Assembly (NCBI RefSeq): GCF_007858535.1
Contig: NZ_CP040174.1
Span: 1-64,000 of the forward strand
Length of the DNA stretch: 64,000 nt
Origin: Arthrobacter sp. UKPF54-2
GTDB lineage: Bacteria; Actinomycetota; Actinomycetes; Actinomycetales; Micrococcaceae
Direction: 5' to 3'
Shown piece by piece: positions 25,508-39,507 of the stretch (its first letter is position 1; each line of letters opens with the position of its first letter). Both the position numbers and the translations under genes were made by a program. The notes beneath the pieces are model-generated. The model was not told where the DNA came from. It saw nothing but the letters and a program-made list of their open reading frames with translations, and ran no database searches.

Positions 25508-26404
25508 CTAGCCCTTGAGCAGCCGGCGCAGGAGGAAGACAAAGGTGGCAGTTGACGCGGCCAGGGCGGCCAGCGGTTTCCAGCGCTTGCCGAGCTCGGC
25601 CGCGGCTTTGGAGCCGCCGGTTGCGGCGGAACCGCCGGCCGTCTTCGGCGCGGCCGCCGCGTCTGCGTGGTTGCGGAAGGCGGCGATCCGGTCGTCCACC
25701 AGGTCCTTGCCGTCCTCGAGCCGGTGCGCGGTGGCGGCGAGCAGGGCCTGGGCCTGGGTCTTGACGTCGAGTTCCTCGCCGAGTTCGTCGCGGACCCCGG
25801 TGAGGTGGCGGCGGCGTTGGTCGAGGCGGCGGCGCAGATCGGCCTCGGTGGGGGCGGGGCCGAGGTCGGGCTGCTCGGCGGCCTTCTTCGCTTCCTTCTC
25901 TGCCTTGGCCTTGGCGGCGGCCTCTTCCTTGGCGGCCTTGGCAGCCTTGGCCTGCGGGGACTTGGGGTCCAGGACGGCGGCGTCGAAGGAGGAGCCTTCC
26001 TTCGCGATGCCGAGATCGTACTTGAGGCCGCGGATCGTTTCTTCCGGCATCAGCGGCATGGCCTTCTTGAACCGGCCGTAGCCGATCAGGCCCACAATCA
26101 GCGCAATCACGAGGAAGGCGGCGCAGACCAGGAGGGCGGCGAGCCAGGCCGGCATGATGGTGGCCAGCCCCATGATGGCGGCCACGATGAGGCCGATGAC
26201 CAGGAAGGCGACAAAGACCAGGGCGACGGCGAAGAAGGCGGCGGCGACGCCGAGCTGGATGCCCTTGCGCTTCAGCTCGACCTTGGCGAAGGCAATTTCA
26301 TCGTTGAGCTGCCGGGGTGCGAGCTTGAAGATCAGTTTCAGGGTCTTGGGCAGCGCCGAAAGGCGCAGCCCTCCGTTTGTCCTGCCGGTGTGCCGTCCGC
26401 TCAT
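25508..26404 (-). CDS. Holin-X-type membrane protein with DUF3618 region
   Basis: 298-residue protein. The N-terminal part matches the actinobacterial Phage_holin_3_6 family: LNDEIAFAKVELKRKGIQLG then two adjacent membrane helices (about 57-80 and 88-110). A Lys/Ala-rich linker (AAKAAKEEAAAKAKAEKE) leads to a DUF3618-like stretch (TEADLRRRLDQRRRHLTGVR DELGEEL, broken here) and a last hydrophobic helix near the C-terminus. Despite the family name there are no phage genes nearby; such proteins are common chromosomal genes of unknown function. I chose the ATG at 26404, which has GAGGCGG upstream; the frame is open to 26476. Confidence 0.75.
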   Translation of the reverse strand: MSGRHTGRTNGGLRLSALPKTLKLIFKLAPRQLNDEIAFAKVELKRKGIQLGVAAAFFAVALVFVAFLVIGLIVAAIMGLATIMPAWLAALLVCAAFLVIALIVGLIGYGRFKKAMPLMPEETIRGLKYDLGIAKEGSSFDAAVLDPKSPQAKAAKAAKEEAAAKAKAEKEAKKAAEQPDLGPAPTEADLRRRLDQRRRHLTGVRDELGEELDVKTQAQALLAATAHRLEDGKDLVDDRIAAFRNHADAAAAPKTAGGSAATGGSKAAAELGKRWKPLAALAASTATFVFLLRRLLKG

Positions 26405-26530
26405 CTGTGCCGCCTCACTGGTTCCATCTACGATTGCGCTGGATTGCCGGGCCTGCGCGGCCTCACGCATCCCCAAGTGTCAAAACTATCATTCAGGGTA
26501 CGGACGGCGGCGCGGCGGGCCGCGCGGGCC

Positions 26531-26536
26531 TAGGAT
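26531..26536 (+). promoter_or_regulatory. -10 box TAGGAT for a leaderless MFS gene
   Basis: TAGGAT is followed by 8 bases and the GTG at 26545. No Shine-Dalgarno sequence lies between, so a leaderless mRNA is likely. No clear -35 box. Confidence 0.45.
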
Positions 26537-26544
26537 TGGCTCCT

Positions 26545-27768
26545 GTGCATACACCCAGCAATCCCGGGGACTCCCTCAGCCGCCGCCGCAAGCTCCTCTA
26601 TATCCTGATGCTGGGCGCCCTGACGGCCCTTGGTCCGTTCACGGTGGACCTTTACCTGCCGGCGTTCCCGGCCCTGGAGGCGAGCCTGGGGGTGACCGAG
26701 GCCGCGGTGCAGCTGACGCTGACCGGCACGACGGTCGGCTTCGCCTTGGGCCAGCTGGTGGTGGGTCCACTCAGTGACAAGTTCGGGCGCCGCCTTCCGC
26801 TGATCCTGGCCACCGCCGTGCACATCGGGGCGTCCCTCGGCGCCGCCCTGTCCACGGACATCGCCACGCTGGGCCTGTTCCGGGTGCTGATGGGCATCGG
26901 CGCGGCCGGCGGCGGCGTGGTGGCGATGGCGATGGTGCGGGACCTGTTCAGCGGCTACGCGATGGTGCGGATGTTCTCGCGGATGGCGCTCGTCAACGGC
27001 CTGGCCCCGATCCTGGCACCGGTGATCGGGTCGCAGCTGCTGCTGCTGATGCCGTGGCCGGGGATCTTCTTTTTCCTTGCCGGCTACGGGAGCTGCGTGA
27101 TCATCGCCGCCCTCTTCGTGGTGCGCGAGACCCTCCCCCGGGAAATGCGCGGCACCACCGGGCTGACGGCGCGCCAGCGCTACGGCGTCCTGTTCGCCGA
27201 CCGGATCTTCGTGGGCCTGCTGCTGCTGGGCGGGATGAACTTCGGCGGCCTCTTCACGTACCTCTCGGCCTCGCCGTTCCTGTTCCAGGATGTCTACGGC
27301 TTCTCGCCGCAGCAGTACGGCCTGCTGTTCGGGGTCAACTCGCTGGGTATCGTGGCGGGCGTGCAGACCAGCTCCCGGCTGATCAAGCGCGTCCCGCCGC
27401 AGTGGATCCTGGCCTGCTCGACGGCGTGGATGTTCCTGATGGCCCTGCTGATTGTGGCGTTCGACCAGCTGGGCTTCGGGCTGTGGGGCGTGATGGTGCC
27501 GCTCTGGTTCTACATCCTGGGCGCCGGGTTCACCTTCCCGTGCGTTCAGGTGCTGGCCCTGGCCAAGCACGGGGCGCAGGCCGGGACCGCCGCCTCCCTG
27601 CTGGGTGCGGCGACGTTCCTGATGGCCGGCATCATCTCCCCCGTGGTCGGCTGGTTGGGCCTCGGCTCCGCAACGCCGATGGGCGCGGTCCAGGCCGGCT
27701 GCATCCTGCTGGCCGCCGCGGCCCTGTGGCTCATCGTCCGGCCCCGGACCGTGCCGTCCATCCACTGA
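26545..27768 (+). CDS. Bcr/CflA-type MFS multidrug exporter
   Basis: 407-residue, 12-helix major facilitator. Helix 1 reads YILMLGALTALGPFTVDLYL with PAFPALEASLG, typical of the Bcr/CflA drug-export branch (DHA1). The MFS loop motif is GPLSDKFGRRLPL. The GTG at 26545 is chosen because the protein then starts with a short hydrophilic tail followed by helix 1; the frame runs further upstream over the divergent holin-like gene. The substrate is unknown; chloramphenicol/bicyclomycin or other small toxic molecules are exported by relatives. Confidence 0.85.
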   Translation: MHTPSNPGDSLSRRRKLLYILMLGALTALGPFTVDLYLPAFPALEASLGVTEAAVQLTLTGTTVGFALGQLVVGPLSDKFGRRLPLILATAVHIGASLGAALSTDIATLGLFRVLMGIGAAGGGVVAMAMVRDLFSGYAMVRMFSRMALVNGLAPILAPVIGSQLLLLMPWPGIFFFLAGYGSCVIIAALFVVRETLPREMRGTTGLTARQRYGVLFADRIFVGLLLLGGMNFGGLFTYLSASPFLFQDVYGFSPQQYGLLFGVNSLGIVAGVQTSSRLIKRVPPQWILACSTAWMFLMALLIVAFDQLGFGLWGVMVPLWFYILGAGFTFPCVQVLALAKHGAQAGTAASLLGAATFLMAGIISPVVGWLGLGSATPMGAVQAGCILLAAAALWLIVRPRTVPSIH

Positions 27769-27808: not shown

Positions 27809-29329
27809 CTAAGGCTTGCGGTGGATGGACTTGTAGCTCAGATAAGCGGTCAGGCCCTCGACTCCATACTCCGTGCCCAAGCCGGAGTCGTGCCGGCCGC
27901 CGAAGGGCGCGGCGTGGTTGGAGGCAAAGAAGTTGATGCCCACCGAGCCGGTATCCATCCGGTCCGCGACGGCCAGCGCCGCCTCCGGATCCTGCCCGAA
28001 CACCAGCCCGCCGAGGCCGAACTCCGTGTTGTTGGCCAGTTCAATGGCTTCCTCAACGCTGCCGCCGGCGTCGTCGTATTTCAGGATGCAGATCACCGGG
28101 CCGAAGATCTCCTCCCGGGAAATCCGCATCTGCGGGGTGACGTCGGCGAACACTGTGGGTTCCACGAAGTAGCCGCCCTCCAGTCCGCCGCCCAGGGCGG
28201 CCGCCCGGCCCCCGGTGGTGGCACGGGCGCCCTCGGCCAGCCCCGATTCAACGTATTCCAGCACAGTCCGGTACTGGGATTCCGTGGCGCAGGGCCCAAA
28301 GACCGTGTCCGGGTCCAGCGGGTCGCCCTGCTTGCCTGCCGCGATGGTCCGGGTGACCATGTCCACCACTTCCTCGTACCGGCTGGCGGGGGCCAGGATG
28401 CGGGTGGAGATGTAGCAGGTCTGGCCGGTGTTGCGCATGGAGGAGCGGATCAGGACTTTGGACATGGCGTCCAGGTCCGCGTCGGGCAGGACGATCGCGC
28501 TGGATTTCCCGCCAAGTTCCAAGGTGACGGGGCGCAGCAGTTCGCCGCAGGCAGCCGCGATCTTCCGGCCCACGGGGGTTGAGCCGGTGAACGCGACCTT
28601 GTCCACGCCCGGGTGCTTCACCAGCGCATCTCCCAGCCGGCCTGACCCGGTGACGAGGTTAACGACGCCGGCCGGAACGCCGGCGGCGGCCACCGCCTCG
28701 ATGATCACCCGCAGCGACAGCGGCGTGGGCGACGCCGGTTTGATGACCACGGTGCAGCCGGCCAGCAGCGCGGGGGCGAGCTTGATGACCACGAGGTTGA
28801 TCGGGAAGTTCCAGGGCGCGATCAGCGCGCACACGCCGATCGGTTCACGCCGGACCACGGATTCGCCGCCGCCCTTGGGGAAAGCCCGCACGTCCTCGCG
28901 CTCGAGGTAGTCGGCCAAAGTGGCGAAGTAGCGGAAAATGCCGGCGGCGTTGGCGGCAGCCCCGCCGGATTCGGCCACCGGCGAGCCGTTCTCGCGGGTG
29001 TTGGTCAGCGACAGTTCCCCGGCGCGTTTCTCGACTTCCTCGGCGATGCGCAGCAGATAGGCGGCCCGCTCGGACGGCGCCAGCCGCGGCCACGCGCCGA
29101 CGTCGAAGGCCGCGCGGGCGGAGGCGACGGCGGCGTCGACGTCGTCGAGGGTTCCGTCCGGGACGGAGCCCCAGACTTCGCCGGTGGCGGGGTCGGTGAC
29201 CGGGTTGCGGCCGGTTCCGCGCGCCGGGATCCAGGCGCCGTCGACGAAGATGTCGTCCACGTGCGTGTACGGCAGGCTCAGCGCGGCCCGCGCTGCGAGG
29301 GCGGCGGCGTCGTGTGTGGCGGCAGTCAC
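27809..29329 (-). CDS. creC: Aldehyde dehydrogenase, 4-hydroxybenzaldehyde-type (CreC)
   Basis: NAD(P)-dependent aldehyde dehydrogenase, 506 residues. Conserved elements: CALIAPWNFPINLVVIKLAP (Rossmann region), VTLELGGKSSAIVLPDADLD with the general-base glutamate, and NTGQTCYISTRI with the catalytic cysteine. In the cre pathway it oxidises 4-hydroxybenzaldehyde to 4-hydroxybenzoate. The GTG at 29329 overlaps the creD stop by 4 bases (GTGA); the frame is open further upstream only as read-through over creD. It is the last gene of the cre operon in this window. Substrate is assigned from gene order, since aldehyde dehydrogenases are promiscuous. Confidence 0.85.
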   Translation of the reverse strand: MTAATHDAAALAARAALSLPYTHVDDIFVDGAWIPARGTGRNPVTDPATGEVWGSVPDGTLDDVDAAVASARAAFDVGAWPRLAPSERAAYLLRIAEEVEKRAGELSLTNTRENGSPVAESGGAAANAAGIFRYFATLADYLEREDVRAFPKGGGESVVRREPIGVCALIAPWNFPINLVVIKLAPALLAGCTVVIKPASPTPLSLRVIIEAVAAAGVPAGVVNLVTGSGRLGDALVKHPGVDKVAFTGSTPVGRKIAAACGELLRPVTLELGGKSSAIVLPDADLDAMSKVLIRSSMRNTGQTCYISTRILAPASRYEEVVDMVTRTIAAGKQGDPLDPDTVFGPCATESQYRTVLEYVESGLAEGARATTGGRAAALGGGLEGGYFVEPTVFADVTPQMRISREEIFGPVICILKYDDAGGSVEEAIELANNTEFGLGGLVFGQDPEAALAVADRMDTGSVGINFFASNHAAPFGGRHDSGLGTEYGVEGLTAYLSYKSIHRKP

Positions 29330-30099
29330 CGGATCACCGCGGTCTTCAGCAGGGCAGTGGAACGGTTCAGGTCCGCCGCGGCCATGTCGTGGGCGGCCTG
29401 GGTGATGAGCTCGGGAACGATTTCCGTGGCCAGCCGGTCGGTGTACGTGGCCGGGTCCATCCCGAACCAGGAGGAAGCCAATGCGATCCCGGCCTGGTCG
29501 AAGCGCCACAGCCGGTCGGCGTCGCGCATCAACGCGTCTTCGAGGGAGTGCGCCTCCGGGCGGGTGTCGTGGCCGTCGATGATGGCGCAGATCCGCTCGA
29601 TGAAGTCCGCGTCGTAGCCCAGGTCCGGCAGCACCCGGCGGGCGACGTCGCAGCCTTGCTTTTCGTGTTCGTAGCGGATGGCGGCCTTGCGCCAGTCCCC
29701 CGCGAAGCCCTCGGAGATGATCCGGGATTCGTCCACGTGGGCCCAGCCGGTGTCGTGCAGCAGGGTGGCGACCCGGACCAGTTCGGCGTCGGCGTCGGGG
29801 TAGGCGCGGCACAGCCGCTCGGCGAAGGCGAGCGAGATCGGCAGGTGGATGTCGTTGCCGCGGGTGCGGGTCTCGTGCACCACGGCCCGCCAGAGTCCGT
29901 CGAGTTCCGCGAGCGCCGCCGGGGTGGTGGCGATCGGGGCAGTGTCCACCGGTCCCGTCGCCGGGACGGGCCGGACCGGGTACGCGGCGGCGAAGCGCGC
30001 AGCCGCGGGATCAACAGTTGCGGAATCAGGGGCCTCGGGATGGTCGGATGCCGGGTTGGCAGGGCCGGCCTCGGCAACCGGGGTCTTGGGGGTGGTCAT
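29326..30099 (-). CDS. creD: HD-domain phosphohydrolase (CreD)
   Basis: 257-residue HD-superfamily metal-dependent phosphohydrolase. Metal ligands are visible as LLHDTGW (H115-D116), IIDGHDTRPEA (H177-D178) and MRDADRLWR (D193, D195). In the C. glutamicum cre pathway CreD removes the phosphate after the P450 has oxidised the alkyl group of the aryl phosphate. The N-terminal 60 residues are Pro/Ala-rich and probably disordered. Ribosome-binding site GAAGGAG 4 bases before the ATG at 30099. A homologous HD protein lies at 37883-38587 on the other side of the cluster; both share the IIDGHD-x-R-x-EA-x-S-x-EDA core. Confidence 0.85.
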   Translation of the reverse strand: MTTPKTPVAEAGPANPASDHPEAPDSATVDPAAARFAAAYPVRPVPATGPVDTAPIATTPAALAELDGLWRAVVHETRTRGNDIHLPISLAFAERLCRAYPDADAELVRVATLLHDTGWAHVDESRIISEGFAGDWRKAAIRYEHEKQGCDVARRVLPDLGYDADFIERICAIIDGHDTRPEAHSLEDALMRDADRLWRFDQAGIALASSWFGMDPATYTDRLATEIVPELITQAAHDMAAADLNRSTALLKTAVIR

Positions 30100-30140
30100 G
30101 GTGCTCCTTCGGGTGGGGCCGACTGACAGTTTGAGTGCAG

Positions 30141-31457
30141 TTAGCTGTCCGTGGTGATCGTCTTGAGGGGTGTGGCCGGGTCCCCGGCGGCGTCGGCCGG
30201 GATGTTCTGGCCCTTGGCCAGCGCGTTTTTGACCGCCATGAAGTCGAGCGGGGCGTTGACGCAGTCCGCGGCGATGACCTGGCCCTTGCGGTAGTAGAGG
30301 ACGCTGAATTTCCCGCGGTCCTCGTCCCGCCGCAGGACGGTCTGGTCGTAGCCGTTGCAGAGACCGGCGATCTGGAGTTTGAGGTCGGCCTGGTTGGACC
30401 AGAACCACGGGATGCCGGCGTATTCCTCGCGCCGGCCGGTGAGCGAGTAGGCCGCCACCTTGGCGTGTTCGATCGCGTTGTTGACGCTTTCGAGTCGGAT
30501 CCGCTCCCCCGGTTCCGAGCCGGGCACGGGGTTGGGCATGTTGGCGCAGTCGCCGATCGCCACCGTGGTGCCGTCCGAGGCCAGCGCGAAACGGTCCACG
30601 ACGATTCCGTTGTCCACCGCGAGGCCGAGCTGTTCGGCCAGTTGGGTATTGGGGACGACGCCGATCCCGACCAGCACGATCTGTGCCGGCAGCACGGTGC
30701 CGTCCTGGAGTTCGACGCCGGCGACAGCAGCGCCGTCGTCGGAAGTGAAGCGTTTGGCGCTGGTGTTGAGCCGGATGTCCAGGCCCCGGCTCCGGTGGGC
30801 CTGGAGGAAGTACTCGGCTGTCTCCTCGCCGACGGCGCGGCCCACCAGCCGCGGGCCGAATTCCAGCACCGTGACGTTTTTCCCCATCTTCTGCAGGCTC
30901 GACGCGGCTTCGAGGCCGATGAACCCGCCGCCGATCACCACCACGTCCTGCGCGTCCCCCACCCGGGCCTTGAGGGCCAGGGCGTCGTCGGCGTTGCGGA
31001 GGTACAGCACCCCCTCGAGGTCCCCGCCGTCGATCTCCAGTTTCCTGGCGCGGGCGCCGACCGTGAGGGCTAGCCGTTTGAAGGGGAACTGCTTCCCGGA
31101 CGCGGAGTGCGCCACTCCCGAACCGTCCGGGTCCTTGTCGATCCGGACGATGTATTCGCCCTTGACCAGCTCCACGTTGTGCTCGGCCCAGTATTCATTG
31201 GAGCGGAAAATCAGGGATTCGCTCTCCACCGCGCCCTGCAGGAACTCCTTGGACAGGGCCGGGCGCTGGTAGGGCCGGTGGTCCTCGTCCCCGAGCAGGG
31301 TGATGTGCTCATCGAAGCCGAGGGCCCGGAGGGACACCGCGAGCTGGACGCCGGACTGGCTGGCGCCAATGATCAGCAGGCCGGTGCGGGTGGGGCTCTC
31401 GGCGTGCGGTCCTGGGCCGGCGGACGTCTGCTCCGCCGCGGCAGCATGGGCGGCCAT
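30141..31457 (-). CDS. creE: FAD-dependent ferredoxin reductase (CreE)
   Basis: Passes electrons from NAD(P)H to the CreF ferredoxin for the P450. 438 residues, glutathione-reductase-like fold. FAD-binding GASQSG near the N-terminus, NAD-binding VVVIGGGFIGLEAASSLQKM in the middle, and the second FAD motif VAIGDCANMPNP. It matches putidaredoxin-reductase-type enzymes. The first 25 residues are Ala/Gly-rich and may not be conserved. Located 2 bases downstream of creF and 41 bases upstream of creD. Confidence 0.9.
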   Translation of the reverse strand: MAAHAAAAEQTSAGPGPHAESPTRTGLLIIGASQSGVQLAVSLRALGFDEHITLLGDEDHRPYQRPALSKEFLQGAVESESLIFRSNEYWAEHNVELVKGEYIVRIDKDPDGSGVAHSASGKQFPFKRLALTVGARARKLEIDGGDLEGVLYLRNADDALALKARVGDAQDVVVIGGGFIGLEAASSLQKMGKNVTVLEFGPRLVGRAVGEETAEYFLQAHRSRGLDIRLNTSAKRFTSDDGAAVAGVELQDGTVLPAQIVLVGIGVVPNTQLAEQLGLAVDNGIVVDRFALASDGTTVAIGDCANMPNPVPGSEPGERIRLESVNNAIEHAKVAAYSLTGRREEYAGIPWFWSNQADLKLQIAGLCNGYDQTVLRRDEDRGKFSVLYYRKGQVIAADCVNAPLDFMAVKNALAKGQNIPADAAGDPATPLKTITTDS

Positions 31458-31459
31458 GG

Positions 31460-31780
31460 CTACACCTGCGTTTCCGGGGTGGTGACGAACAGTTCGAGCT
31501 CGTCCGTCAGGCGGAGCTGGCAGGAGAGCCGGGAGTTGTCCTCGCGGTCCACGGCGGTGCCGTAGAGCATCTCATCCTCCATGTCCTCCATCGGCGGGAG
31601 CTGCGGGAGGCAGTCCTCGCGGACGAACACGTGGCAGGTGGCGCAGGACAGCGAGCCGCCGCATTCGGCGACGATGCCGGGCACGCCGTTGCGGACCGCG
31701 GTCTCCATGACGGAGTCGCCGGCGTTGCCCTGAACGTCGCGGACAGCGCCTTCGGCGTCGGTGAAATGAACGGTTGGCAT
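31460..31780 (-). CDS. creF: [2Fe-2S] ferredoxin, adrenodoxin/putidaredoxin type (CreF)
   Basis: 106-residue electron carrier. The four cluster ligands are C40, C46, C49 and C87 in ECGGSLSCATCHVFV and LSCQLRLTDELE, the spacing of P450-associated adrenodoxin-type ferredoxins. The region EDMEDEMLYGTAVDREDNSR is the usual acidic interaction surface. Strong ribosome-binding site (AAGGAG before ATG at 31780). Sits between the reductase and the dehydrogenase, forming a three-component CreJ-F-E oxygenase with the P450. Confidence 0.93.
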   Translation of the reverse strand: MPTVHFTDAEGAVRDVQGNAGDSVMETAVRNGVPGIVAECGGSLSCATCHVFVREDCLPQLPPMEDMEDEMLYGTAVDREDNSRLSCQLRLTDELELFVTTPETQV

Positions 31781-31826
31781 AGGAACTCCTTGGATAAATC
31801 GGTACGTAGGGCGGTGGCGGAGGCGG

Positions 31827-32600
31827 TCAGATGAACTGGCGGCCGCCGTCAACCACCATGGTCTGGCCCGTGTAGTAGGAACTGTCCGGCCCGGACAGGA
31901 AGAGCGCCGCACCCACGATGTCCTCCGGCTGGCTGGCCCGCTTGATCGCGCCGCGGTCCACACCGTAGTTCTCGGCGTCCTCCATCAGCCCGTAGCTGGC
32001 TTCGGTAAGGGTAAAGCCGGGGGCGATCGCGTTGACCGTGATCCCCCGCCGGCCCAGTTCCTTGGCCATCACCCGGGTCAGGGCCACCACGCCGCCCTTG
32101 GAGGCGACATAGTGCAGCCACTGTTCCGAGCCGCTGAAGATGGTGGCGCTGGAGAGGTTGATGACGCGACCGCCTTCGCGCAGATACGGGCTCGCGGCCC
32201 GGGTGACCAGCCAGGGGCCCTTAAGGTTCACGTTCATGACGAGGTCCCATTCGGCCGGGTCGATGTCTTCGAACGGGCTGCGGGTCACCCCTGCGTACAC
32301 GGCGGCGTTGTTGACGACGACGTCGATGCTCCCGTTGCCGAACTCCGCGCAGCTCTTCGCCAGGGCCTCGGTGGAGTCGAGGCTGGTGACGTCCGCTTCG
32401 AAGGCGGCCGCTTCGGCACCGGCTTCGCGGACGAGCTTCGCTGTCTGCTCGGCGCCTTCGAGGTTGATGTCGGCAACCGCCACGCGGTAGCCGCGGCGGC
32501 CGAAGCCGAGCGCGAACGCCCGGCCCAGGCCGCCTGCGGCACCGGTGATCAGGACGGTACGGGCAGGCTGGCCCACGCCGTCCAACTGCGGATCAGACAT
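31827..32600 (-). CDS. creG: Short-chain dehydrogenase/reductase (CreG)
   Basis: 257-residue classical SDR. Cofactor-binding TGAAGGLGRAFA, an acidic residue after strand 2 (VADINLEG) indicating NAD preference, NNAAV, and the catalytic S...Y-x3-K as LSSATIF and YVASKGG. In the cre pathway this enzyme oxidises 4-hydroxybenzyl alcohol to the aldehyde. The start overlaps the creH stop by 8 bases. Exact substrate is inferred from the cluster. Confidence 0.87.
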   Translation of the reverse strand: MSDPQLDGVGQPARTVLITGAAGGLGRAFALGFGRRGYRVAVADINLEGAEQTAKLVREAGAEAAAFEADVTSLDSTEALAKSCAEFGNGSIDVVVNNAAVYAGVTRSPFEDIDPAEWDLVMNVNLKGPWLVTRAASPYLREGGRVINLSSATIFSGSEQWLHYVASKGGVVALTRVMAKELGRRGITVNAIAPGFTLTEASYGLMEDAENYGVDRGAIKRASQPEDIVGAALFLSGPDSSYYTGQTMVVDGGRQFI

Positions 32601-34467
32601 GGCTGTGGCTGTGACTATGGGCGCCCGGTCCGGCCACCAGCAGTTCGGGTTCGTCGTCGAGGATCTGGACGGTGCCCTTGGTGCCGTCCACCCGCAGCCG
32701 CTGGCCGGTTTTGATCGTGGTGGACCCGGAACCGGTCCCGGTGACGGCCGGCAGCCCGTATTCGCGGCACACGATGGCCGCGTGGCTCATCATGCCGCCG
32801 ATGTCGGTGACAGTGGCCTTGATCTTGCCGAAGATCGGTCCCCAGGACGGTGCCGTGACGGTGGCGACGAGGATCTCGCCCTGCTGGACCTCGGAGAGCT
32901 GATCCGCGTCGGTGACGACGCGTGCCAGGCCCTCGACGACGCCGGGTGAGGCTGCCATACCGCGCAGGCCGCCGCCCTCAACCTCTTCGCCCGCGCCCAG
33001 CCACTGCTGGACCTGCTCGGTGGTGATGCCCCAGAGCATCCGGGTGAAGGGTTCGGTGATGATCTCCGGCGGCGTGTTCAGCGCCGGCGCCGGCCGGGCG
33101 GTCTTGAGCGCGTCCACGATGCCGCGGCGGCGTTCGATCTCCGCCGGCCAGTAGTCCGGACCGATCGGTTTGGCGCCGACGCCCCACCCCGTCACGAGGT
33201 CGAACAGAGCGTCGCGGACCTCGTTGCGGCCCAGATAGAGCAGGTCGTCCGGTTCGGTCCAGAAACCCTCGGCCTGCATCATGCGGGACAGTTCACGGAT
33301 CTTGCGCCAGAAGACGCCCATGGTCCAGTGCTCGATGTAGAAGTTGTGGTTTTCCACGTACGGGTAGGCGGTGGCGGCGAGCCCGCGCTTGGCGTCGAAG
33401 AGCGCCTGGTTTTCGCCTTCGAGCAGCTCGCGGTATTCCTCGATGATGCGGTCACGCTCAGCGATCAGGGCCTCGACCGGGCGCATGATCTCCTGGCCGT
33501 CATCCACGCGGCGGATGTAGTCCGCGATGTAGCCCAGCGGGATTTCCTGGTGTTCGTTCCAGTACTTGTCGTGGCCGTAGAAGCCGTTGCCGACCGTGAA
33601 GTTGAACCACGGGTCCTTGGCGGCCTCGTACTGGGCCGTCCAGCGGTCCCCGCCCGGGGCGGCGGCGATGGCAGCGAGGGTGGCGTCGACGTCGTCGGTG
33701 TTGGAAAAGTGCGGCTGCAGGCGCAGTTCGACGGCGAGCTTGGCGAGCTGCTTGAGCTCGTCGTCCGGGCGGAAGAGTTCCATGTCCACGCCCTGCACCA
33801 TGGTGGCGATGGACTGGTCGGGGATGTTGGGAAACACCTGCTTGCAGAAGTTGAAGAAGTCCAGGTAGGCGATGTAGCCGAGGTTGAGGAACTCGAAGTG
33901 GTACTGCCAGTTCTGGTAGGCCAGCTGGATCAGCCGGTCGTAGCTGTCCAGCAGCTTCTCCGAGCCGTCCTTGCCCTTGCCGGAGAGGATGTCCTCCATC
34001 GGGACCATGTCCGGGAGCCGGGGAAAGGAGATGGTTTCCATTTCGTCGATGGTGCCCTTGACCTTGACGTGCCACTGCTTCAGGAGCTGTTCCCAGTTCT
34101 GGAAGTAGTGGCCCACGCGCTGTTCGAACAGAGAGACACGGGCGGCGATCTGGTCCTCCGGAACGGGAATGGGCGACATGTACAGGTAGCCGAGGTGCAC
34201 ACGGAATTCGATCCCGTTGGCGTTGGGGATCATCAGGTGCCGGGCGTTGTACTGGCCCAGGCACTTGACCGCGAACTCGCCGCCGATCGTCTCGAAGGGC
34301 TTGAACACGGTGGGCCAGTGCTGGCTGTCGCAGAACCAGAACTTGGCGTCTTCCTGCTCCTTGAGCTTGTCCTGGAAGACCAAATAGTACGGGTAGATCT
34401 TTTCCCAGCCCTCGGCTCCGGCGGGAACCGGCAGCTCGGAGGGCTTGGGGAAGGACTTCGGGGACAT
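32593..34467 (-). CDS. creH: Alkylphenol phosphotransferase subunit with PEP-utilising mobile domain (CreH)
   Basis: 624-residue subunit of the ATP-dependent aryl phosphate synthase. The C-terminal part (about 500-610) is a PEP-utiliser mobile (swivelling) domain: GMAASPGVVEGLARVVTDAD, then the phospho-histidine H562 in GGMMSHAAIVCREYGLPAV. The N-terminal 500 residues (rich in Trp, Tyr and Phe) resemble no common domain I can name, and presumably bind the phenol. It has no ATP-grasp domain, which is on the separate creI product, and no C-terminal PEP-binding barrel. It ends in HSHSHSHV, an unusual natural histidine-rich tail. SD AAAGG before the ATG at 34467; the frame is open upstream but would overlap creI. 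Confidence 0.83.
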   Translation of the reverse strand: MSPKSFPKPSELPVPAGAEGWEKIYPYYLVFQDKLKEQEDAKFWFCDSQHWPTVFKPFETIGGEFAVKCLGQYNARHLMIPNANGIEFRVHLGYLYMSPIPVPEDQIAARVSLFEQRVGHYFQNWEQLLKQWHVKVKGTIDEMETISFPRLPDMVPMEDILSGKGKDGSEKLLDSYDRLIQLAYQNWQYHFEFLNLGYIAYLDFFNFCKQVFPNIPDQSIATMVQGVDMELFRPDDELKQLAKLAVELRLQPHFSNTDDVDATLAAIAAAPGGDRWTAQYEAAKDPWFNFTVGNGFYGHDKYWNEHQEIPLGYIADYIRRVDDGQEIMRPVEALIAERDRIIEEYRELLEGENQALFDAKRGLAATAYPYVENHNFYIEHWTMGVFWRKIRELSRMMQAEGFWTEPDDLLYLGRNEVRDALFDLVTGWGVGAKPIGPDYWPAEIERRRGIVDALKTARPAPALNTPPEIITEPFTRMLWGITTEQVQQWLGAGEEVEGGGLRGMAASPGVVEGLARVVTDADQLSEVQQGEILVATVTAPSWGPIFGKIKATVTDIGGMMSHAAIVCREYGLPAVTGTGSGSTTIKTGQRLRVDGTKGTVQILDDEPELLVAGPGAHSHSHSHV

Positions 34468-34532
34468 GGCGGTCCTTTCAATTCGGGCTCGGCGTTGAGC
34501 CAGGGTGATGGAGCGGGTCAAATCTTGCTGGA

Positions 34533-35588
34533 TTAGCTGGCGGGGCTGAGTCCGCTGAAATAGCCTCCGCCGGCGACGGCAGAGGGCACGGTGGGCTTGG
34601 AGGAGTGCACGGTTTCGGGCCGGGACTGCAGCAGGAGCAGGTTCTCGCCGTCGGGCAGGTCGGCGTCGAGGGCCCATTCGATGTCCTGCGGGCACTTGTA
34701 GTGCTTCTCGGCGCGCTTGGCCATCTGGGCGACGGCGGTGAGCTCGGCGTCGCTGAGGCTGCGCCGGCCGCGGCGTTCGGCGTCGACCTCGCGTTCCACC
34801 AGGCGGCCGGCCGCGGTGTCCGGGACGAGCTCGGCGTGTTTGTCGCCGAGGTGGTCGGAGACGACTGCCAGCGTGACCTTGTCCAGCATGATGTTGTCGG
34901 GGGTGACCTGGCCGGAGACCACCATCTCGCCGACCCCGTAGGAGGAGTCGATCGTGATTTTGGAGCGGTCGCCGTTGGTGGGATCCATGGTGATCGCCAC
35001 GCCGGAGACGCGGGCGTTGGCCATCTTTTGCACCACGACCGCCATCGACAGGCCTTCGTTGGGGATGCCGTTCTTGAGCCGGTAGATGATGGCCCGGGAG
35101 GTAAAGAGCGAGGCCCAGCACCGCCGGATGTGCTCGGTGACGGCCTTGACGCCGTCGAGCCAGAGGTAGGTATCCTGCTGGCCGGCGAAGGAGGCCTCCG
35201 GGAGGTCCTCGGCAGTGGCGCTGGACCGCACGGCCACGGGGACCGGTGCCCCGAAACGCGACATCAGGGATTCGTAGGCGGTGATGGTGAGCTCGCGCAG
35301 TGCCGGCGGAACCGGGCGGGAGCAAATGTCCTCGCGGATGGCGGCGGAGACCTTGTCCACCTGGGCCATGTCGTCGGGATCAAGGCCGGCGAGGAGCTGG
35401 TGGATGTGCTTGGTGATCCCGGCTTCCTCCATGAAGGTGTCGAACTGGGCCGTGGTGACCACAAAGCCCGGCGGGACCGGCATGCCGGCGGAGGTCATGG
35501 TCACCAGGGACGCGCCCTTGCCGCCGAGGTTTTCGAGCTTGGGTTCGATGCCGCCGTCGAAGAATTGGATGTATTCGTTGCTGTCCAT
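34533..35588 (-). CDS. creI: Alkylphenol phosphotransferase ATP-binding subunit (CreI)
   Basis: 351-residue PEP/pyruvate-phosphate-dikinase ATP-grasp domain (PPDK_N type) as a free-standing protein. Typical segments: LGGKGASLVTMTSAGMPVPP near the N-terminus, VAVRSSATAEDLPEASFAGQ with the ATP-binding arginine, GVAITMDPTNGD and QDIEWALD near the C-terminus, ending LLLLQSRPETV. It supplies the phosphoryl group, via the mobile histidine of CreH, to the phenolic hydroxyl. Starts 5 bases after the creJ stop; its GGAAGG ribosome-binding site lies inside the end of creJ. A whole PEP synthase was considered, but the mobile and PEP domains are missing here. Confidence 0.87.
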   Translation of the reverse strand: MDSNEYIQFFDGGIEPKLENLGGKGASLVTMTSAGMPVPPGFVVTTAQFDTFMEEAGITKHIHQLLAGLDPDDMAQVDKVSAAIREDICSRPVPPALRELTITAYESLMSRFGAPVPVAVRSSATAEDLPEASFAGQQDTYLWLDGVKAVTEHIRRCWASLFTSRAIIYRLKNGIPNEGLSMAVVVQKMANARVSGVAITMDPTNGDRSKITIDSSYGVGEMVVSGQVTPDNIMLDKVTLAVVSDHLGDKHAELVPDTAAGRLVEREVDAERRGRRSLSDAELTAVAQMAKRAEKHYKCPQDIEWALDADLPDGENLLLLQSRPETVHSSKPTVPSAVAGGGYFSGLSPAS

Positions 35589-35593
35589 AGTTA

Positions 35594-36871
35594 TCAGGCC
35601 TTCCAGCTGACGGGGACGGTCTCGGGGACGCGGAAGGAGAGGTTTTCGCGGAAGGCGATGGCTTCCGGGTGCTCCAGCTGCAGTCCCGGGGCGAGCCGTG
35701 CCACTTCCTCCAGCGCGATTTTGGCCTGGAGCTTGGCGAGCATATTGCCCAGGCAGTAGTGGATGCCGAACCCGAAGGAGAGGTGCTCGCGGGCGTTGGG
35801 GCGGGTGATGTCGAAGTCCTCGCCGGCGTCGAACTTGGTTTCGTCGCGGTTGGCGGAGCCCATCAGGAGCAGCAGCTGGGACCCCTTTTCGATCGCTACG
35901 CCGCCGACTTCGGTGTCCTTGAGCGCTTTGCGGCGCCAACCGACAATGGAGCCCGCGTAGCGGAGGACCTCGTCGATGGCGGCGGGGATCTTTTTGGGGT
36001 CTTCCACGAGCTGGTTCCACTGCTCGGGACGGGCCAGGAGTTCGCGGAGGGCGTTGGAGATCAGCGTGGTGGTGGTCTCGTGGCCTGCAAAGAGCAGGCT
36101 GTAGAGGACCGACGCGATCTCGTGGTCCGAGATTTCTGCGCCGTCCTGCTGTGCCTTGACCAGGTCCGCGGTGAGGTTGTCGCCGCCTTCCTCGTGCGCC
36201 ACCCGGACCAGGCGCAGGCATTCCTGCCAGTACTCGACCAGGTTGTGGGCGTGCGGAATCTGTTCCTCGTCGCTGAGGTCGCCCCAGGTCATCGCCGCGC
36301 GGGAGTCGCTCCAGCGCTTGAACGTGTCCACCTGGGACACGTCCGCGCCGATCAGTGTGAGGATGGTGATGGTCGGGACATCGTAGGCGAGGTCCTTGAC
36401 CATGTCGCCGCGCTGTTCCGCCCGGGAAAGCATCGTCTCGAGCAGCCCGACGACGTTCTGCCGGATGAAAGGTTCCAGCGCCTTGTAGCGGCGGGGTGTG
36501 AAGGCTTTCTGGACCACGGCGCGGATCCGGGTGTGCTCCGGCGGGCGCCGGGCGGACAGGCCCGAGTAAGCGGTGAATCCGCCGTCCTCCATGATTTTCT
36601 TGGCCGCGGCACCGCGTTCCCGGACCGGGGCCTGGGCGTTCTCGCTGGAGAAGGTCTCCCAGTCCTCGAAGACGGCCTTGATGTCGTCATAGCGGGACAC
36701 AACGTAGAGGCCCGTCCGCTCATCGAACATGACCGGCTGCTCGGCCCGGAGTTCGGCGTAGGCGCCGAAGGGATGCTTCATCTGGAACGGCTCGTAGCCG
36801 TGGTGACCGGCGGGGGCTTCCGCGCCGTGGCCGAACGGACAGCGTCCGGCCGTTTCAGTCGACGATGACAT
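35594..36871 (-). CDS. creJ: Cytochrome P450 acting on alkylphenyl phosphates (CreJ)
   Basis: Heme monooxygenase of 425 residues, class I bacterial type. I-helix oxygen-binding LLFAGHETTTTLISNALR, K-helix E-x2-R in DEVLRYAG, and the heme loop HLSFGFGIHYCLG with the axial cysteine C373. In the cre system it oxidises the alkyl side chain of the phosphorylated phenol, using CreE and CreF as redox partners. First structural gene of the cluster after the regulator. AGGAG precedes the ATG. Its order beside creI and creR, rather than motif content, gives the CreJ assignment; similarity to the CYP288 family is from knowledge of the C. glutamicum enzyme. Confidence 0.87.
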   Translation of the reverse strand: MSSSTETAGRCPFGHGAEAPAGHHGYEPFQMKHPFGAYAELRAEQPVMFDERTGLYVVSRYDDIKAVFEDWETFSSENAQAPVRERGAAAKKIMEDGGFTAYSGLSARRPPEHTRIRAVVQKAFTPRRYKALEPFIRQNVVGLLETMLSRAEQRGDMVKDLAYDVPTITILTLIGADVSQVDTFKRWSDSRAAMTWGDLSDEEQIPHAHNLVEYWQECLRLVRVAHEEGGDNLTADLVKAQQDGAEISDHEIASVLYSLLFAGHETTTTLISNALRELLARPEQWNQLVEDPKKIPAAIDEVLRYAGSIVGWRRKALKDTEVGGVAIEKGSQLLLLMGSANRDETKFDAGEDFDITRPNAREHLSFGFGIHYCLGNMLAKLQAKIALEEVARLAPGLQLEHPEAIAFRENLSFRVPETVPVSWKA

Positions 36872-36925
36872 GAGGTCTCCTAGTGAATTGCTCCGACCGG
36901 CGCCGTCAGGTGCCGGGGCTTCTTG

Positions 36926-36984
36926 TCACCAGTGTGGTCCAGATCACCAGCCGTGCACAGGCGTTACTTCCGCTCAGCGGAAGT
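36926..36984 (-). promoter_or_regulatory. Candidate cre operator region: palindrome and direct repeats
   Basis: ACTTCCGCT-C-AGCGGAAGT (36966-36984) is a perfect palindrome with 9-base arms covering the last codons of creR. Downstream, toward creJ, two CTGGTGA direct repeats on the minus strand (36950-36944 and 36932-36926, 18 bp apart) lie 55-79 bp before the creJ start. The TTCC/GGAA symmetry resembles IclR-type operators. The palindrome could instead act as a hairpin ending creR transcription. Confidence 0.4.
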
Positions 36985-37815
36985 GATGTGGTGGCCGCGG
37001 GGACCGCCGTCGGCGTTCCCGGTGTTCGGGGCCGCCCGGTGGACCCCGATGAGGGTTTCCAGCGGGATCCGTGCGGTGGCCCGCTCGATTTGGCCGGATA
37101 TTCCTCTCAGGACCGGAAGGTGCCTGGTCATGGTGGCAGCCTGGGACGTGGGCAGCACCAGGCCGATCGCGGCCCCGATCCTGCCCGTGTGGAAGACCGG
37201 GACGGCGATGGAACACGAGCCCAGTCGCACTTCCTCCAAGGTGGTGGCGTAGCCGGTCGCGCGGATCTGGTCCAGTTCCGCGGCGAGTTTCCTGGGGTCG
37301 ATGTGGGTGTGGGCCGTGGGCCGCTCCAACTCCCGATGAAGGTACGCGTCGCGGACCCAATCCTCCTCGAAGGCCAGGATGACCTTGCCGACGGCGGTGG
37401 CGTGCATGGGTAGCCTGCCTCCGACGCGGGATGCCCGGGGGACCCGCTTGGAGCCGTAGACCCTGTCGATGTAGAGCACGTCATGGCCGGCCCGGACCGC
37501 CAGGTGCGCAGTCTCGCCGGTCAGCGAGAACAGGTCCTGGACAAACGGCCGGGCGGCGTCGCGCAGCTGCCGTCCGGTGTTTTGGGCAAGTTCCCACAGC
37601 CGGATGCCGAGCTGGTACCGTCCGTTGGGCTCGCGCGAGAGGAATCCCCAGTCCGTGAGTTCGTTGACCAGCCGGTGCGCGGTACTCAACGGGAGGCCGG
37701 ATTTCTCCGCGATGTCCGTCAGGCTCAGTGCGCCGCGGGAGGTCTCAAATGCCTCCAGGATGGCCAACACCTTTGACGTGACGGTGCGTCCGGGGTCGCG
37801 GCTGCCGCCTGCCAT
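36964..37815 (-). CDS. creR: IclR-family regulator of the cre genes (CreR)
   Basis: 283-residue regulator. N-terminal winged helix (about 10-70): VTSKVLAILEAFETSRGALS, LTDIAEKSGLPLSTAHRLVN. The C-terminal IclR effector domain includes RAGHDVLYIDRVYGSKRVPR, PMHATAVGKVILAF and GSCSIAVPVFHTGRIGAAIG. IclR members typically control aromatic catabolism. Its gene lies directly upstream of creJ in the same direction, with 92 bp between. GAGGAGG ribosome-binding site. The effector (alkylphenol or its phosphate) is inferred. Confidence 0.87.
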   Translation of the reverse strand: MAGGSRDPGRTVTSKVLAILEAFETSRGALSLTDIAEKSGLPLSTAHRLVNELTDWGFLSREPNGRYQLGIRLWELAQNTGRQLRDAARPFVQDLFSLTGETAHLAVRAGHDVLYIDRVYGSKRVPRASRVGGRLPMHATAVGKVILAFEEDWVRDAYLHRELERPTAHTHIDPRKLAAELDQIRATGYATTLEEVRLGSCSIAVPVFHTGRIGAAIGLVLPTSQAATMTRHLPVLRGISGQIERATARIPLETLIGVHRAAPNTGNADGGPRGHHITSAERK

Positions 37816-37882
37816 GGTGACCTCCTCAGTTCCGTGGCGCCCCCAGGGCGTCCGGAATCGAGTCTAGACCGGCATGGACGCC

Positions 37883-38587
37883 TCAGCGGCTGCTCCCGGT
37901 ACCTTCGAGGGCGGGCCCGTCCAGCAGGCGCTGCCGCTGCGGCCAGAGGGTCACCGATTCCAGGGCGGACAGGGCCCGCGCGATGGACCGGGCCTCGGCG
38001 GTGAACAGGTGGCCATGGACGCGCTGGCTGCAGAGCCGCAGCGCCTGCCCGCGGTCCAGGCCGAACCAGTCCATGACCGTGTCGATGCCGTGTGGGCTGA
38101 GCCGCCAGGTCTTGTCCGCATCCTTGACAATGGCGTCCTCGATGGAAAGGGCCTCACTGCGGGAGTCGTGTCCGTCGATGATGTCCAGGATGGCCGGGAC
38201 CTTCCCGGGATCGTAGCCGCTCGCCGTGAGGATGCCGGCCGCCAGCCGGGCCCCCTCTTTCTCGTGCAGCAGCACCAGGTCCGGCCTCCCGCCGCCCGGG
38301 GCGATCGCCTGCAGGACGTCCCCCGGGGGAACCTGCGACCAGCCCACGTCATGGAGCATGATGGCCGGCAGCACGACGCCGGCGTCGGCCTCTGGGTGCG
38401 AGTCCAGCAAGGCCCGGGCAAGCCCGAACGCGTAGAGCGTGTGGGCGTCGTTGTCCCGCACCTGGAGAAAAGGGGCCGCGCGGTCCCAGATCGCGGACAG
38501 TTGGGGGTCCAGCGCGATCACTCCGTCCGGATCCGCCTGGACACTGTCGGCGACGTCCCGTCCGTAGTGGTTGGCGGCGGCCCTCAT
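37883..38587 (-). CDS. Second CreD-like HD-domain phosphohydrolase
   Basis: 234-residue HD protein with the same metal-ligand pattern as CreD: MLHDVGW (H79-D80), IIDGHDSRSEA (H140-D141) and VKDADKTWR (D156, D158). Along this core it is clearly homologous to creD, but it lacks CreD's Pro-rich N-terminus. I chose the ATG at 38587: GGAGG lies 10 bases upstream, whereas the ATG at 38596 would be 1 base from the same GGAGG. It is upstream of creR in the same direction and may be part of the cluster. It could have a different aryl-phosphate preference, or could hydrolyse another phosphomonoester. Confidence 0.8.
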   Translation of the reverse strand: MRAAANHYGRDVADSVQADPDGVIALDPQLSAIWDRAAPFLQVRDNDAHTLYAFGLARALLDSHPEADAGVVLPAIMLHDVGWSQVPPGDVLQAIAPGGGRPDLVLLHEKEGARLAAGILTASGYDPGKVPAILDIIDGHDSRSEALSIEDAIVKDADKTWRLSPHGIDTVMDWFGLDRGQALRLCSQRVHGHLFTAEARSIARALSALESVTLWPQRQRLLDGPALEGTGSSR

Positions 38588-38726
38588 TTTCGTCATACCT
38601 CCAACAGTGGCCGATAACTGGGCCGGGGCAAGAACAATCTTCCACTCACCGGAACACAGCCGGAAACGCCGCGGGGAGTGCCCGGCCCGGGACCGCGCTG
38701 CCCTGTTCGCAGCAGACGGCGGGCGA

Positions 38727-39209: not shown

Positions 39210-39213
39210 TCCG

Positions 39214-39286
39214 CTCCTCCTGCTGGACTTGAACCAGCAACCCTTCGATTAACAGTCGAATGCTCTGCCAATTGAGCTAAGGAGGA
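39214..39286 (-). tRNA. tRNA-Asn (GTT), copy 1
   Basis: 73-nt cloverleaf with acceptor TCCTCCT/AGGAGGA, D arm GCTC/GAGC, anticodon stem-loop TTCGA-CTGTTAA-TCGAA (anticodon GTT), T arm GCTGG/CCAGC and discriminator G. No encoded CCA. Identical to the copy at 39435-39507. Confidence 0.95.
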
Positions 39287-39429: not shown

Positions 39430-39434
39430 GTGCG

Positions 39435-39507
39435 CTCCTCCTGCTGGACTTGAACCAGCAACCCTTCGATTAACAGTCGAATGCTCTGCCAATTGAGCTA
39501 AGGAGGA
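39435..39507 (-). tRNA. tRNA-Asn (GTT), copy 2
   Basis: Same 73-nt sequence as copy 1, 221 bp away, including a few shared flanking bases (GAATGAAGC side). The sequence between copies is otherwise different, including the terminators. Confidence 0.95.

Follow-up and report, generated by a model that had tools for sequence, protein, structure and literature searches.

A cre-type alkylphenol gene cluster in Arthrobacter sp. UKPF54-2, accompanied by a second HD phosphohydrolase gene and a predicted shared operator

The first 64,000 nucleotides of contig NZ_CP040174.1 of Arthrobacter sp. UKPF54-2 (assembly GCF_007858535.1; this whole stretch is the window referred to below) contain ten co-directional genes on the minus strand, transcribed in the order D2-creR-creJ-creI-creH-creG-creF-creE-creD-creC. 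Nine of them, from creC to creR, form a block at 27809-37815 resembling the cre genes of Corynebacterium glutamicum; the tenth, here called D2, lies upstream of creR and encodes a second HD-domain phosphohydrolase. An initial annotation of the sequence had described a complete nine-gene cluster at 27809-38587. All nine genes were found on the minus strand with the Pfam domains it had named, in the order C-D-E-F-G-H-I-J-R; the word complete is less apt, for D2 lies within the same interval and had not been listed. The features, with protein lengths in amino acids (aa), are as follows.

27809..29329, minus strand: creC, aldehyde dehydrogenase, 506 aa, GTG start (Pfam Aldedh, 517 bits)
29326..30099, minus strand: creD, HD-domain phosphohydrolase, 257 aa (Pfam HD, 38 bits)
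30141..31457, minus strand: creE, ferredoxin reductase, 438 aa (Pyr_redox_2 and Reductase_C)
31460..31780, minus strand: creF, [2Fe-2S] ferredoxin, 106 aa (Fer2)
31827..32600, minus strand: creG, SDR alcohol dehydrogenase, 257 aa (adh_short_C2)
32593..34467, minus strand: creH, swivel/substrate subunit of phenol dikinase, 624 aa (PEP-utilizers), His562
34533..35588, minus strand: creI, ATP-grasp (PPDK_N) subunit of phenol dikinase, 351 aa (PPDK_N, 368 bits)
35594..36871, minus strand: creJ, cytochrome P450, 425 aa (Pfam p450), heme ligand Cys373
36964..37815, minus strand: creR, IclR-type regulator, 283 aa (HTH_IclR and IclR_C)
36968..36982, no strand assigned: predicted CreR operator of creJ, TTCCGCTGAGCGGAA, overlapping the last creR codons
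37883..38596, minus strand: D2, second CreD-like HD phosphohydrolase (Pfam HD, 34 bits), 237 aa if the ATG at 38596 is used and 234 aa if that at 38587
38640..38654, no strand assigned: predicted CreR operator of D2, TTCCGGTGAGTGGAA

The P450 encoded by creJ has its best Protein Data Bank (PDB) matches in chains 5xjn_A and 5gwe_A (708 bits; the next chain scores 235 bits). The PDB table labels these entries Cytochrome P450 only; we take them to be C. glutamicum CreJ. One Corynebacterium genome (G401, locus L123) encodes a P450 that is 100% identical to 5xjn_A over 401 residues, and on this identity, together with the assumed identity of 5xjn, it is presumed to be C. glutamicum. The proteins of the Arthrobacter cluster share 71% (C), 66% (D, covering residues 24-257), 69% (E), 69% (F), 75% (G), 77% (H), 71% (I), and 76% (J) identity with those of L123, in the same order. 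CreR is 59% identical to its counterparts in two sister Corynebacterium genomes (L124 and L125), the corresponding stretch of L123 reading N. The order from C to J is also that of C. glutamicum creCDEFGHIJ, given as cg0637 (creC) to cg0645 (creJ) in the available text of PMC7764795. The initial annotation had matched the cluster to C. glutamicum by domains and order, and had named low identity of CreH or CreI as a finding that would count against the match; the collinearity and the 66-77% identities, with CreH and CreI at the values above, bear the match out.

The two residues singled out earlier are also correct: His562 in CreH and Cys373 in the P450. His562 sits in TDIGGMMSH, which agrees with the CreH motif T/SxxGGxxxH with Ser preceding His, as described in passages of PMC12167813, and the creH product scores 1292 bits against NCBIfam NF006150 (cut-off 650). 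CreD groups with the CreD of L123 in a phylogenetic tree. The cluster is thus a cre cluster as judged by sequence, and is best read as serving the catabolism of 4-cresol through aryl phosphates. The strategy was rightly called unusual, yet it has been published already and the cluster is widespread.

Related loci were taken as the best 80 of 400 CreH relatives from the genome collection, with flanks of up to 10 kilobases (kb). All nine genes are collinear (R-J-I-H-G-F-E-D-C) in 64 of the 80, so the arrangement is not due to chance; nine further loci are collinear from J to C with creR absent or elsewhere, and seven, mostly at contig ends, hold a partial set. CreH matches at 1e-150 occur in 48 of 245 Micrococcaceae genomes, and cre-type CreH (at least 75% identity) in 47, one genome (G001) being dropped for having a 47% relative only. 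The cre cluster is ordinary in the Micrococcaceae and common in relatives of Arthrobacter; a CreJ-type P450 was found in 13 of 242 Corynebacterium genomes. The dnaG/dgt/dusB flank of the present cluster is shared by a single locus (L051), so the cluster seems to lie at different chromosomal places in its relatives.

Several loci depart from the common form. Arthrobacter sp. C2 (CP042428.1) has two cre clusters (L033 and L039), with D2 in the fetched stretch of L033 only. Pseudarthrobacter loci L011, L015, and L016 carry a second PPDK_N-like protein (37% identical to CreI) after creC. In Sinomonas notoginsengisoli (L023) creH to creC are present and the upstream 10 kb give no match to creJ or creI, perhaps through loss, rearrangement, or an assembly fault. 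Contig L018, assigned to an Acidobacteria metagenome-assembled genome, has the cre order and a CreH 93% identical to that studied here; it is probably a mis-binned Arthrobacter-type contig. CreH-like proteins of 51-56% identity occur in other actinobacterial families (G498, G513, G542, G527, G493, G732, G743, G571, G855, and G871); they fall between the cre-type set and a set at 42-47%, and perhaps belong to another phenol-kinase pathway.

With enzyme roles transferred from the C. glutamicum orthologues, CreI would transfer a phosphate from ATP to His562 of CreH, and CreH would phosphorylate the phenol oxygen. CreJ, supplied by CreE and CreF, would then oxidize the methyl group of the aryl phosphate and CreD would strip the phosphate, while CreG and CreC would complete oxidation to 4-hydroxybenzoate, feeding protocatechuate ring cleavage. 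A PcaH of the source genome scores above its family cut-off, at 355 bits.

Phosphorylation of a phenol also opens other pathways, and the kinases are homologous: CreHI, HpeHI, and PpsAB are related according to passages of PMC12167813 and PMC9618137. The Hpe pathway of Rhodococcus rhodochrous GD02 (hpeHICBADEF) likewise starts with a two-component phenol dikinase and includes dephosphorylation; as described in the accessible part of PMC9618137, it differs in that it carboxylates, does not use a P450, and employs a NagD-like phosphatase (HpeD) rather than an HD protein. Phenylphosphate synthase PpsAB of Thauera aromatica has homologous kinase components (available text of PMC12167813); it serves an anaerobic phenol route in which the phosphate is carboxylated (passages of PMC9618137) and has no P450 partner, PpsA being compared here by its description. 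A cluster serving another phenol by the hydroxyphenylethanone route or by phenol carboxylation, and not alkylphenols, is nevertheless very improbable. None of the ten proteins is a carboxylase or HAD phosphatase by Pfam, and neither the biotin carboxylase HpeCBA nor the NagD-like HpeD, as defined in the part of PMC9618137 available, was found among them; the P450 and its partners are of the CreJEF type; and CreH relatives of 45-47% identity in some Micrococcaceae form a separate set. D2 was considered as an Hpe-type phosphatase and rejected, HpeD being NagD-like in the same account.

D2, with a predicted operator of its own, is the feature by which this locus differs from the C. glutamicum cre genes. 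It is 34% identical to CreD over 177 columns, with a profile-profile probability of 100%, and its relatives, where named, are annotated as HD domain-containing or hypothetical proteins. In a tree without an outgroup, from which rows under 200 aa were excluded, a single branch (support 100/100) separates D (75 rows) from D2 (41 rows), so that D2 does not group with the CreD orthologues. The putative HD ligands, assigned from what we take to be the pattern of the family, are H85, H115, D116, H145, H177, D178, and D193 in D and H52, H82, D83, H111, H143, D144, and D159 in D2, and are retained at 99-100% in D and D2 alike. The two clades differ in what they fix at many other positions, among them R78, R95, W136, and R142 of D and K158, K162, and H169 of D2; the three Arg residues of D are absent from D2.

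Structural models of both proteins are all-helical, with a mean predicted local distance difference test score of 94.8 for D2 and 88.8 for D. In Foldseek the best PDB neighbors of the models are HD hydrolases, among them 2pjq (E 0.0011) and YpgQ (E 0.0066), and no PDB match reaches E ≤ 0.001. A profile search of the PDB gave no close relative of either protein, only 2pq7 (E 0.041 for D2 and 0.00058 for D), and a PDB search with 244 residues of D alone gave no match.

D2 (at least 125 bits) is present in 41 of the 80 loci, and in 39 of the 69 that have creJ and at least 2 kb of upstream sequence; the copy in L034 is 40% identical only. It lies upstream of creR and co-directional with it in 36 of the 41 (in 34 within 190 base pairs [bp], measured between matches), between creR and creJ in two, after creC in two, and on the opposite strand in one. 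This neighborhood invites the idea that D2 tunes the switch or clears by-products, either by breaking down an aryl phosphate that serves CreR as effector or by removing dead-end phosphates made by CreHI on phenols that CreJ cannot oxidize. In eight genomes where D2 is at least 39 kb from creH or on another contig (L095-L102), creR still stands beside D2, as such a role would have it; against this, D2 is not upstream of creR in five of the 41 loci, and around the copies in L090-L094 and L103-L107 the fetched stretch holds no match to creR that reaches 150 bits. We regard the tuning idea as possible though doubtful.

A palindrome, TTCCRCTSAGYGGAA, was found upstream of both creJ and D2 in an alignment of upstream regions from loci L001-L052. 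Sites within three mismatches were then sought in the 300 bp upstream of genes in the held-out loci L053-L080, with R, H, I, E, C, G, and D as control genes: a site precedes J in 18 of 24 cases and D2 in 12 of 18, vs one of 186 for the controls. In the loci used for the consensus the counts are 48/48 (J), 17/21 (D2), and 4/352 (controls). In 26 of the 29 D2 genes that have a site, it starts 57-62 bases ahead of the start codon, and 76 of 3,000 random 320-bp windows of D2 loci reach three mismatches. Twenty extra loci, mostly from genomes that lack CreH or have a distant, divergent, or unlinked D2, were also searched; 19 hold D2, and the site precedes it in all 15 with CreH in the genome and in one of the four without.

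A relaxed pattern, TTCCRSTSASYGGAA, has two unmismatched sites in the 3.52-megabase (Mb) genome, at 36968-36982 (creJ) and 38640-38654 (D2). Exceptions to the usual gene order fit a shared operator: where the order is R-D2-J (L056 and L060) it is D2, not J, that the site precedes, and where D2 directly follows creC (L028 and L042) it has no site of its own. Sinomonas loci L024-L027, which have no creR at that place, retain the creJ site, so this site does not merely reflect conservation of creR coding sequence. From the position and family of CreR, it is probably the protein that binds the predicted operator. The initial annotation had read the dense spacing as one operon; the mapped starts and stops confirm the overlaps (H/G 8 bp, D/C 4 bp) and the short gaps (J/I 5 bp, F/E 2 bp), and the remaining gaps are 65 (I/H), 46 (G/F), 41 (E/D), and 92 bp (R/J). 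Single transcription is only partly borne out, as two or more transcripts are predicted from the operator pattern, one starting at D2 and another at creJ. A motif GTGA-N6-CCAC at 36934-36947, between the operator and creJ, recurs in many rows of the upstream alignment; it resembles what we take to be a CRP/GlxR-type site and suggests a second control.

At a threshold of 1e-40, D2 occurs in 43 of the 245 Micrococcaceae genomes. Cre-type CreH and D2 are found together in 39, CreH only in eight, D2 only in four, and neither in 194; of the 47 genomes with such a CreH, 39 thus carry D2, vs four of the 198 others. In the 39 genomes with both, D2 is within 10 kb of creH in 23; in the other 16 it is 10-130 kb away (seven), 1.8 Mb away (one), or on another contig (eight), some of these last perhaps reflecting fragmented assemblies. 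Ten proteins encoded next to unlinked D2 copies were scanned and no aromatic-catabolism partner was found among them; they comprise AAA ATPase and VWA proteins, an FAD-binding protein, carboxylase subunits, glycosidases, a trypsin-like protein, SLAC1, and one without a family. In a sample of 396 genomes from the phylum, D2 occurs in two, the source genome and one with a 43% match; this sample is uninformative on co-occurrence, no CreH above 56% identity being present besides that of the source genome.

We consider it highly probable, on these sequence comparisons, that the cluster encodes a cre pathway acting on 4-cresol and similar para-alkylphenols, to which D2 is added with a role on aryl phosphates and under control shared with the pathway through CreR. 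CreR acting on TTCCRCTSAGYGGAA before creJ and D2 would switch D2 and the pathway together; D2 very probably belongs to the cre regulon and is probably under CreR control. Most likely D2 hydrolyzes aryl phosphates of the pathway that CreD handles poorly, its substrate being deduced: they may differ in oxidation state or ring substituent, or be dead-end phosphates. D2 would not be expected to hydrolyze 4-methylphenyl phosphate fast, since fast hydrolysis would create a futile cycle.

Several observations weigh against this reading. The PobA candidate of the source genome scores 411 bits, under the family cut-off of 538.7. The consensus came from inspection of L001-L052 by eye, once both genes' upstream regions had been viewed, and in the held-out loci six of 18 D2 upstream regions and six of 24 J upstream regions have no site. 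Genome-wide, the relaxed pattern has five one-mismatch sites, giving seven sites with up to one mismatch vs two for the reversed pattern; with up to two mismatches there are four sites in the window, where shuffles average 1.03 and five of 100 reach four. On these counts, weight is given to the two unmismatched sites only. The Fisher test on CreH and D2 co-occurrence (p 1e-32) ignores shared ancestry. D2 is missing from eight of the 47 cre-bearing Micrococcaceae and was not found in any of the 13 cre-bearing Corynebacterium genomes searched, the presumed C. glutamicum included, where the only D2 match is 33-37% identical and, in the three loci fetched, is creD itself; the pathway therefore runs without D2.

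The same genomes would suit a plain cre cluster in which D2 is a mere neighbor or a redundant CreD isoenzyme with no distinct role, as would the common family and shared putative HD ligands of D and D2. D2 is, however, rare where cre is absent (four of 198 Micrococcaceae, and a weak 43% match in one of the other 395 genomes of the phylum sample); unlinked copies retain the operator, and D2 has a clade to itself in which particular residues are fixed. A plain cluster is a possible though less likely alternative to the extended pathway.

The five one-mismatch genome sites all fall inside open frames of at least 150 codons. One of them lies near pca genes (L132), in a frame that is presumably pcaJ; it is treated as chance.

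The pathway has been published and the cluster occurs widely; the undescribed parts are the conserved D2 component and the predicted operator, of which the titles, abstract openings, and passages of the open-licence literature searched make no mention. A paper on p-cresol in Rhodococcus opacus 1CP (PMC13101518) contains no occurrence of creH or creD. D2 lies beyond the reach of work on C. glutamicum, since the cre-bearing Corynebacterium genomes searched are without it. One tentative idea is that D2 represents a distinct aryl-phosphate phosphatase family with a clearing or proofreading role: CreHI might phosphorylate broadly, and D2 might free phenols that CreJ or CreD cannot process, or remove the aryl-phosphate signal of CreR. 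If so, the phosphate-tag strategy would have a built-in escape absent from the C. glutamicum model. Cre enzymes serve as a biocatalyst to oxidize alkylphenols selectively (passages of PMC9549646), and this toolbox may gain in breadth or precision from a second phosphatase that belongs to a clade of its own; the predicted operator makes the cre regulon testable across the actinobacteria.

An MFS transporter gene (26377-27768, plus strand) is convergent with creC, with no match shown in the 80 related loci, and is probably outside the cre system. Two tRNA-Asn genes, at 39213-39286 and 39434-39507, adjoin the cluster.

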